DNA of 44,011 bases, from NCBI GenBank assembly GCA_009377835.1, contig WHTG01000005.1, forward strand, positions 1-44,011, read 5' to 3'. Under the pieces are notes generated by a model. The model was not told the origin of the DNA. It searched no databases and was given only the letters and a program-made list of their open reading frames with translations. The stretch's first letter is position 1. Each line of letters begins with the position of its first letter. The stretch is from Nitriliruptorales bacterium. Its GTDB lineage: Bacteria; Actinomycetota; Nitriliruptoria; Euzebyales; Egibacteraceae. Below, piece by piece: positions 3,712 through 7,124 of the stretch. The translations under genes and the position numbers were made by a program.

Positions 3712-3999
3712 TCAGCCGGCAGTTGGCGAGACTGCGCTTCGGGCGTCCTGGACCGTGAGCACGATGACGCGGTCGTCCTCTTCCTCGTAGCGGTAGACGA
3801 TGATCATCCATCGCCATGGTCCGAGCAGGGAGCGAAGGCCGGTCCAGCGGCCGTGCAGTTCTGGGCCGAGGCGCGGCAGGCGCTCGAGGACGCGTAGTCC
3901 GCGACTCACGCGGTCTCGCGTATCGGTGGGCAGGCTGAGTACGGCGATCAGCCGGTCGAGGTCCTCGATGGCGTTGACCGTTAGCTCGACGACGGCCAC
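3712..3999 (-). CDS. RelE/ParE-type toxin
   Basis: A 95-residue protein with the RelE/ParE fold pattern: an N-terminal helix pair rich in Leu (AIEDLDRLIAVLSLP), then beta strands with PELHGRWTGLRSLLGPWRW and a central MIIVYRYEEEDDRVIVLTV strand pair. These toxins cleave mRNA on the ribosome or poison gyrase; which one cannot be told here. The GTG at 3999 starts 4 bases beyond the antitoxin stop codon, the usual antitoxin-first arrangement. It lies within the accessory region, consistent with a mobile stability module. Family-level confidence is good. Confidence 0.75.
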   Translation of the reverse strand: MAVVELTVNAIEDLDRLIAVLSLPTDTRDRVSRGLRVLERLPRLGPELHGRWTGLRSLLGPWRWMIIVYRYEEEDDRVIVLTVQDARSAVSPTAG

Positions 4000-4003
4000 G
4001 CGT

Positions 4004-4258
4004 CTACAGGTCGTCGAGTGTGATGGTCTGGCCTCGCGCGGCCTGCTCCAAGCCCTGCTGAGCTCGCCCGAAAGCGCCGGGGATGGCGTCGAGGAGCATG
4101 ACGACGTTCTCGGGGTCCGGGTCTGCTTCGTCGATGGCGCTGGCAAGCAACGAGCGAGCGAGGGTGCCCTCGTTGACGTGCACCCTGGCAGCCAGCTGGG
4201 TGAGCTTGGCGGCTCGCTCGGTGTCGAGCGTGATGTTGAGACGCTGTGAATCCGGCAT
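4004..4258 (-). CDS. ribbon-helix-helix antitoxin
   Basis: An 84-residue protein that begins with a ribbon-helix-helix DNA-binding domain (QRLNITLDTERAAKLTQLAA then VNEGTLARSLL) at about residues 5-45. A tail ending in GQTITLDDL follows, the short segment that in RHH antitoxins commonly wraps the partner toxin. Four bases separate it from the RelE/ParE-like gene. Antitoxins of this class repress their own operon; a short palindrome lies just before the start codon. Together the pair is a complete type II toxin-antitoxin module. Confidence 0.8.
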   Translation of the reverse strand: MPDSQRLNITLDTERAAKLTQLAARVHVNEGTLARSLLASAIDEADPDPENVVMLLDAIPGAFGRAQQGLEQAARGQTITLDDL

Positions 4259-5713: not shown

Positions 5714-6082
5714 GTGACAGATCCCATCACTTCCACCGTCCACGCGCCTGGTGCCGTGTTGGCCTTCGACGTTCGCGAACCGCAGACGCCGAGCGACCAC
5801 CGACCCGTGTTCATCTTCGGATCACCGATGGGGGCGTCGGGCTTCGAGCAGCTGGTGCGTCACTTCGATGACCGAACAGTCATCACCTACGACCCGCGCG
5901 GCATGGAGCGCAGCACGCGGGAGCCCGAAAGCGAGCTCACCGCCGAGGTGCACGCCGACGACTACCACCGCGTCGTCGAGGCAGCGGGGCTCGGCCCGGT
6001 GGATGCGTTCGGCTCGAGCGGCGGCGCCATGTGTGCCCTGGCTTGGGTCGTCGCCCACCCCGAGGACGTCGCCACTTCCTGA
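5714..6082 (+). pseudogene. alpha/beta hydrolase, truncated after the nucleophile elbow
   Basis: The 122-residue product matches only the first half of an alpha/beta hydrolase. It has a strand and oxyanion region (VFIFGSPMGASGF), TYDPRGMERSTRE, and the nucleophile elbow FGSSGGAMCALAW. It then stops abruptly after HPEDVATS, so the lid and the acid and His of the triad are missing; relatives are about 270-290 residues. GTG 5714 has GGAG five bases upstream. The reading frame runs straight into the first of two inverted-repeat units (6074 onward), which supplies the stop codon, so the 3' part was lost by rearrangement at that unit. Confidence 0.75.
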
Positions 6083-6117
6083 CAGAACCGTGACAGTTCG
6101 CGGATTGGTCAGGAAGT
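6074..6117. repeat. 44-bp inverted-repeat unit, copy 1
   Basis: A perfect 10-bp inverted repeat ACTTCCTGAC (6074-6083) / GTCAGGAAGT (6108-6117) encloses 24 bases. The whole 44-bp unit recurs 72 bases further on with four differences. The unit begins inside the truncated hydrolase frame. Confidence 0.8.
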
Positions 6118-6145
6118 TGCCGGTCGCCGACAGTTGCGGCGTTCG

Positions 6146-6189
6146 ACTTCCTGATGGAACCGCGACAGTTCGCGGATTGGTCAGGAACT
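6146..6189. repeat. 44-bp inverted-repeat unit, copy 2
   Basis: The second copy of the unit at 6074-6117 has the same length and an identical core (GACAGTTCGCGGATTGGTCA). The outer arms are ACTTCCTGA and TCAGGAACT, so the right arm has lost one match. The 28 bases between the copies are unrelated. Possible explanations are transposon-end or MITE remnants, or tandem binding sites; see the half-site array at 6276-6306. Confidence 0.8.
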
Positions 6190-6270
6190 TTGTGGGAGCG
6201 GCTGATCTCGGCCGGTTAAGCGAAGGGATAAGCCTGGGGGCGACCGCCGCCACCTCGGGCTGCCCCTTCG

Positions 6271-6306
6271 TTGATAGGAAGTAGTAGCGGAAGTATGGTA
6301 GGAACC
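6271..6306 (+). promoter_or_regulatory. antitoxin promoter with three phased AGGAAGT-like sites
   Basis: TTGATA (6271-6276) and TATGGT (6294-6299), separated by 17 bases, form a good sigma-70-type promoter 34 bases before the antitoxin ATG. Overlapping it are three direct copies of a heptamer at an exact 12-base period: AGGAAGT (6276), CGGAAGT (6288) and AGGAACC (6300). The position over the promoter suggests an autoregulatory operator of the downstream Xre-type antitoxin. Confidence 0.55.
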
Positions 6307-6332: not shown

Positions 6333-6683
6333 ATGGCGATGACACTGGACCGGGCCGTGGAAGCCGGCGAGATCGTCTCGGCACTGCGAGGCTACGGATT
6401 CACGCAGGCCGACGTGGCGCGGGCAGTCGGCGTGTCTGACAGGGCGGTGCGCAACTGGTCGGGCCAGGTTGCTTTGCGCCGAGGCCACGAGGAGCAGCTC
6501 CAGACCCTTAGGCAGATCGTCCTGCTGCTGAGCGACTCACTCACCCCACGCGGTGTGGGGCAGTGGTTCCGCGCGCACAACCGGACGCTGGACGGCCGAC
6601 GCCCCCTCGATGTGCTCGCCGACGGCGACGCCGAAGCGGTCCGCGGCGCGGCTGCCGCTTTCGCCGACGGCGCGTACGTCTGA
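6333..6683 (+). CDS. Xre/MbcA/ParS-family antitoxin (partner toxin decayed)
   Basis: A 116-residue protein. The N-terminal half is a helix-turn-helix (GYGFTQADVARAVGVSDRAVRNW). The C-terminal half is the toxin-binding DUF2384-type domain, with the usual segment WFRAHNRTLDGRRPLDVL followed by the small helical end. It has a strong ribosome site, AAGGAG, and an ATG at 6333. In this family the antitoxin is followed by a RES-domain toxin that degrades NAD+. That partner is present just downstream but wrecked, so this gene is probably an orphan antitoxin. It may still repress its own promoter. Confidence 0.8.
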   Translation: MAMTLDRAVEAGEIVSALRGYGFTQADVARAVGVSDRAVRNWSGQVALRRGHEEQLQTLRQIVLLLSDSLTPRGVGQWFRAHNRTLDGRRPLDVLADGDAEAVRGAAAAFADGAYV

Positions 6684-6717
6684 GCCTGTCGAACCTGGGC
6701 TGAGTCCGCATCAAGGG

Positions 6718-7124
6718 GTGATGAACGATCTCTCGCGTCGCCGGCTGCCCCGGCCGTCTGGCATCAGACCCGTCCCCGCAACGCCCTGCTGCAATTCGAA
6801 GACCCCGCGAGCTACGACGGGCGCTACCACCGCGCCGGAAGCCCCGGCGGCTGGTACGCGTCGCTGACCGAGCGCGGGGCGTGGGCCGAGTTGTTCCGCC
6901 ACTGGGACCAGCACGAGATCTCCCGTTCGAGGTGCGGCGTCGCGCCGGACGCGCGCATCACCGACCTCGTGGTCCTCGACCTCACCGATCCCGCCGTTCG
7001 GAACCAGTTGGAAGTCACGAAAGCGGACCTCACGGGCGACAACCTAGCCACGTGCCAAGATCTTGCCGAGCAGGCCCGCGCCGCCGGCGGCCCAAAGGCC
7101 GCGGCAGGTGCTCTTGGCCCGTGA
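6718..7124 (+). pseudogene. RES-domain toxin gene, frameshifted and 3'-truncated
   Basis: RES toxin features are readable but scattered over frames. The start GTG 6718 / ATG 6721 gives MNDLSRRRLP. From about 6756 another frame reads VWHQTRPRNALLQF, SYDGRYHRAG and GGWYASLTERGAWAELFRH. Around 6920-6957 the expected LPFEVRRRAGRA lies in a third frame, then RITDLVVLDLTD and ADLTGDN return to the second frame. The protein then breaks at about 7090 and ends with unrelated residues at 7124. Family members are about 200 residues and hydrolyse NAD+; at least three indels and loss of the C-terminal third should make this copy inactive. Confidence 0.75.

Follow-up and report, generated by a model that had tools for sequence, protein, structure and literature searches.

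A putative 12-bp direct-repeat operator of an MbcA-like antitoxin and a neighbouring duplicated palindrome in a Nitriliruptorales genome

Seven AGGAAGT-like heptamers lie between positions 6074 and 6306 of a 44,011-nucleotide stretch of contig WHTG01000005.1 (Nitriliruptorales bacterium, assembly GCA_009377835.1; hereafter, the window), upstream of a gene for an Xre-type antitoxin. Four of them are arms of inverted repeats and three are direct copies next to the antitoxin gene. This arrangement raises the question of whether one protein, perhaps the antitoxin itself, binds both kinds of site, as a preliminary description of this DNA proposed, or whether two features share a heptamer by chance. 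Most likely, the locus combines the operator triple of an MbcA-like antitoxin with an unrelated pair of palindromes at a rearrangement junction. The features are as follows.

5714 to 6073, forward strand: 5' part of an alpha/beta-hydrolase gene, about 120 of about 290 codons, cut at the first palindrome.
6074 to 6117, no strand: first copy of an imperfect 44-bp palindrome, with arms ACTTCCTGAC and GTCAGGAAGT.
6146 to 6189, no strand: second copy of the 44-bp palindrome, 72 bp downstream of the first.
6271 to 6299, forward strand: sigma-70-like promoter, TTGATA-17-TATGGT, which the repeats overlap.
6276 to 6282, forward strand: putative operator repeat 1, AGGAAGT, assigned from the 12-bp triple, mycobacterial operators and an independent weight matrix.
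6288 to 6294, forward strand: putative operator repeat 2, CGGAAGT, within the top single site of the mycobacterial matrix (12-mer at 6285).
6300 to 6306, forward strand: putative operator repeat 3, AGGAACC, degenerate, weak in the matrix when alone and strong within the triple.
6333 to 6683, forward strand: Xre/MbcA-type antitoxin of 116 amino acids, recognized by its Pfam domains, a structure match to MbcA and mycobacterial homologues.
6684 to 7121, forward strand: relic of a RES-domain toxin (PF08808, E 2.3e-9), with the C-terminal core missing.

All seven heptamers are present, each with zero to two mismatches to AGGAAGT. The exact word occurs in reverse at 6074-6080 and 6146-6152 and in forward orientation at 6111-6117 and 6276-6282; CGGAAGT (6288-6294) and AGGAACT (6183-6189) each depart from it by one mismatch, and AGGAACC (6300-6306) by two. 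Three of the arm positions first reported (6074, 6111 and 6146) are correct, and the fourth, given as 6182, lies one base too early, the true start being 6183. The spacing of the direct copies at 6276, 6288 and 6300 is exactly 12 and 12 bases, as had been described. The heptamer is also denser than in random sequence, with AGGAAGT found 8 times in the 44-kb window against 1.70 expected, and at least 8 copies in none of 100 shuffles. Half of these exact copies (4/8) sit in the seven-heptamer region. Three of these four belong to a single duplicated palindrome, as its arms, and because the arms copy one another by symmetry and duplication, they amount to about one independent event.

The antitoxin has an N-terminal helix-turn-helix domain (PF13384, E 1.8e-5) and a C-terminal, toxin-binding Xre_MbcA_ParS domain (PF09722, E 4.2e-5; 23.9 bits, 0.6 under the cut-off of 24.5), with a RES gene adjacent, the combination expected of the Xre/MbcA class. 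Moreover, it matches M. tuberculosis MbcA (PDB 6fkg chain C, E 1.1e-9), with homology over residues 11-116. Its homologues were obtained by whole-genome search; the mycobacterial ones are 58-60% identical to it, and the recognition helix VSDRAVRNW reads VSDRAVRGW or close to it in these proteins (SDRAVR/TDRAVR). Peptide patterns retrieved no relatives of the antitoxin in a genome-wide scan and in a viral scan.

The RES relic begins directly 3' of the antitoxin frame, and its first in-frame ATG, GTG or TTG does not come before 6891. It shares 43% identity with the pMYCCH.02 RES protein of M. chubuense over the first 129 residues. When compared with L081, its N-terminus, middle and C-terminus are out of frame or missing, with several frame breaks and a scrambled middle. 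To judge from these frames, the toxin looks decayed, unless the assembly carries several errors, and the locus does not hold the intact, translatable RES toxin of a functional Xre-RES system. The antitoxin had been called an orphan, which is only partly right, since a decayed toxin adjoins it. Relic 6684-7121 (forward strand) would count as intergenic for an ORF caller.

The promoters of homologous antitoxin genes provide the main evidence on the direct copies. Our close group consists of eight mycobacterial homologues (L042, L062-L067 and L079). All eight have three CCGG[T/A]AGT-like repeats with a 12-bp period, about 18-47 bases 5' of the ATG, and two of them (L063 and L066) have a fourth repeat, AGGAACT, another 12 bp on. 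A RES gene follows the antitoxin gene in 7/8 and was not detected after it in L067. When periods from 8 to 20 were scanned in the antitoxin promoters, period 12 was the only outlier, both in the close group (summed -log10 p 19.6; runner-up 3.4) and in the MbcA-like group (17.5; runner-up 6.1). The MbcA-like proteins have the recognition helix ASPRSVARW and the repeat core GACA[T/A]A, and their loci carry three copies with a 12-bp period; one of them (L075) shows an 11-bp period instead.

Within the window, the 12-spaced triple was found once against 0 expected, and the promoter-like hexamers match at 9/12 positions, a level for which shuffling the 401-base region gave an expectation of 0.0. 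Across the 3.34-Mb genome, the triple has one exact match and one match with three mismatches, and a reversed-pattern control gave 7 matches at the three-mismatch tolerance. The mycobacterial-type operator pattern had no match in the viral contigs searched. We also built a weight matrix from the mycobacterial operator sites alone, with the window sequence left out. In the 44-kb window, the matrix scores highest at 6285 for single sites (15.4 bits) and at 6273 for triples (21.6 bits); the runner-up among non-overlapping triples has -0.2. AGGAACC on its own scores poorly (rank 780).

Because both the recognition helix and the three 12-bp repeats are shared with the mycobacterial homologues, the antitoxin very likely binds the three direct copies. 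The triple at 6276-6306 is most likely the autorepression operator of the 6333-6683 antitoxin, binding being predicted from this comparison. With its 12-bp period over the promoter, common to the homologues, the candidate operator appears to be a further case of the known MbcA-type direct-repeat design, as in mycobacteria. Antitoxin molecules, alone or together with the RES toxin in relatives that keep it intact, would sit adjacent to one another on successive GGAAGT-like half-sites. The half-sites span the -35 to -10 region, so that RNA polymerase would be blocked and the antitoxin would repress its own operon. As the RES toxin gene has decayed here, what is left is probably an antitoxin that represses itself.

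Repression of this kind has been documented for M. tuberculosis MbcA, which acts via a pair of GACAAA repeats in direct orientation, "separated by 12 bp", and mutating one of them relieved repression (PMC7291234). The M. tuberculosis Xre-RES system MbcTA, in which MbcA is Rv1990c, resembles the present locus in an antitoxin homologous over residues 11-116, a RES partner and the 12-bp direct repeats through which MbcTA represses itself (PMC7291234). It differs in the repeat core (GACA[T/A]A, against CGGAAGT here) and the recognition helix (ASPRSVARW, against VSDRAVRNW), and its toxin is functional whereas the one here is decayed. Also similar are the plasmid Xre-RES modules of Mycolicibacterium chubuense (pMYCCH.01 and pMYCCH.02) and their mycobacterial chromosomal homologues. 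Their antitoxin is about 60% identical, its recognition helix is the same, and the three 12-bp repeats end in CCGGAAGT. Unlike at our locus, the RES gene of pMYCCH.02 is annotated as complete, and these modules have no 44-bp palindromes upstream. Pseudomonas putida Xre-RES belongs to the same toxin-antitoxin family and is repressed through repeats in the xre promoter, where a 4:2 complex binds an imperfect inverted repeat (PMC12204516), as opposed to the 12-bp direct repeats here.

If all seven half-sites formed one regulatory array, the antitoxin would also bind the inverted arms, which would serve it as accessory sites or for looping. Three of the four arms contain exact AGGAAGT, the arms rank 15, 49, 53 and 89 when about 88,000 positions are scored with the mycobacterial operator matrix, and the palindrome units lie 72 bp, or 6 x 12 bp, apart. 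However, no such inverted palindrome with the heptamer occurs within 320 bp in the promoters of the homologues (0/8), the arms are single half-sites without a 12-bp partner, and the distance from the arm at 6183 to the operator at 6276 is 93, which is no multiple of 12. In addition, the four arms represent one duplicated palindrome and hence about one chance event, the probability that an arm of 20 bases and the operator have a 7-mer in common being 1.3% (window) to 3.6% (local composition) per arm before the post hoc choice of motif. We consider a single array improbable. The earlier proposal of one protein for inverted and direct sites is thus upheld for the direct copies, by the helix and repeats of the homologues, and finds no support for the inverted units. 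The 7-mer common to arm and operator is probably a chance match, although the moderate matrix ranks leave room for weak binding of the antitoxin to the arms. It was the comparison of homologous promoters that allowed operator and palindromes to be told apart; a chance heptamer in a palindrome can pass for part of an operator.

The two palindrome copies are in direct orientation and 91% identical over 45 bp, and their symmetry is nested, with an outer pair ACTTCCTGAC/GTCAGGAAGT and an inner GAAC-n7-GTTC. Copy 1 starts exactly where the hydrolase reading frame ends. Hydrolase homologues of about 290 residues align up to 6070-6076 and not beyond; the 3' part of the gene was not found in the window, nor in the genome by a single search without a positive control. 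Since the homology ends there and the 3' part was not found, 6074 is a junction, and the palindromes, which begin exactly at the truncation, most likely mark a rearrangement scar. They are a duplicated inverted repeat at the junction that truncates the hydrolase gene, most likely the ends of a lost insertion. The alternative offered in the preliminary description, namely ends of a vanished element and a heptamer match that is partly chance, fits this start at the hydrolase cut better than a shared binding protein does.

The further sign once proposed for a mobile element, many genomic copies flanked by target duplications, is absent, the 44-bp units occurring only here in the genome. No other copy was found in this genome by BLAST and degenerate patterns, in 100 relatives by BLAST, in GTDB species genomes and IMG/VR by degenerate patterns, or in plasmids and phages by blastn. 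Of the hallmarks of an insertion element or MITE, the units show gene disruption at the boundary, but they lack the additional copies, whether in this genome or in the relatives searched, that these elements and REPs would have. Pfam scans of the larger reading frames of the window identified no transposase or integrase, and no target duplication supports a lost insertion. Candidate further units (L003-L009) were rejected, their weak matches being short chance similarities, and when relatives were searched for transposon ends resembling the arms of the units, only scattered two-mismatch matches came up.

The palindromes could also be operators or recombination sites of another protein, such as a TetR-type regulator or a site-specific recombinase. 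Their nested symmetry and their two direct copies with 91% identity would suit such a role, as would the recurrence of GACAGTT at 6092, 6129 and 6164. We regard this explanation as unlikely, given that the units have no relatives in any collection searched and that the Pfam scans of the larger reading frames showed no recombinase. As regards GACAGTT itself (forward strand), its steps of 37 and 35 bp amount to a rough 36-bp rhythm, with one copy inside the 27-bp spacer.

Also unlikely is a hairpin pair formed by RNA or by single-stranded DNA, be it a terminator, a REP-like element or a transposon hairpin. Segment 6066-6200 does fold better than 200/200 shuffles (z -6.1 as RNA, -5.0 as DNA), but such a fold is expected from any two copies of a palindrome. 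Moreover, there is no U-tract terminator, Rfam gave no match up to E 1, and the units are not multi-copy, unlike REPs. A separate long stem, AGCGAAGGG ... CCCTTCGTT, lies in 6190-6275 (forward strand), between the palindromes and the operator, and its fold is only mildly better than that of shuffles (z -1.8).

The candidate operator, together with the promoters of its relatives, suggests a wider pattern. Tentatively, and with some doubt, we propose that Xre-RES antitoxins of the MbcA branch follow a common grammar of three half-sites at exactly 12 bp, in which the core drifts with the recognition helix (CGG[T/A]AGT, GACA[T/A]A, GCAA[C/G]T and others) and the repeats may match the three-fold assembly of MbcTA, with one of its arms on each repeat. 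If this fit were true, the repressor would be a length-measuring one. MbcA has been described with two repeats, and three half-sites with helix-following cores go a little further than that. Among more distant Xre-RES loci, the same period is found with other cores in some, and the 12-bp triple is absent in the RES-linked loci L045, L046, L048, L014, L053, L055 and L056, so that the rule does not hold throughout the family. Pairs of recognition helix and half-site, as collected here, could allow the binding code to be read, and the present locus supplies a testable operator for the Xre-RES antitoxin branch outside mycobacteria.

Two further sets of repeats were observed 5' of antitoxin genes. 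In another lineage of the phylum (L057, L058 and L059), three GGGCATT-like repeats recur with an 11-bp period. In another branch (L083 and L069), three ACGCAA[C/G]T-like repeats have a 12-bp period and a different core.

Finally, two short frames lie at 3715-4258 on the reverse strand of the window. By eye, one resembles a toxin of the RelE/ParE type and the other an antitoxin of the ribbon-helix-helix type, the latter frame having no Pfam match. They represent a possible second toxin-antitoxin pair, 2 kb from the first.
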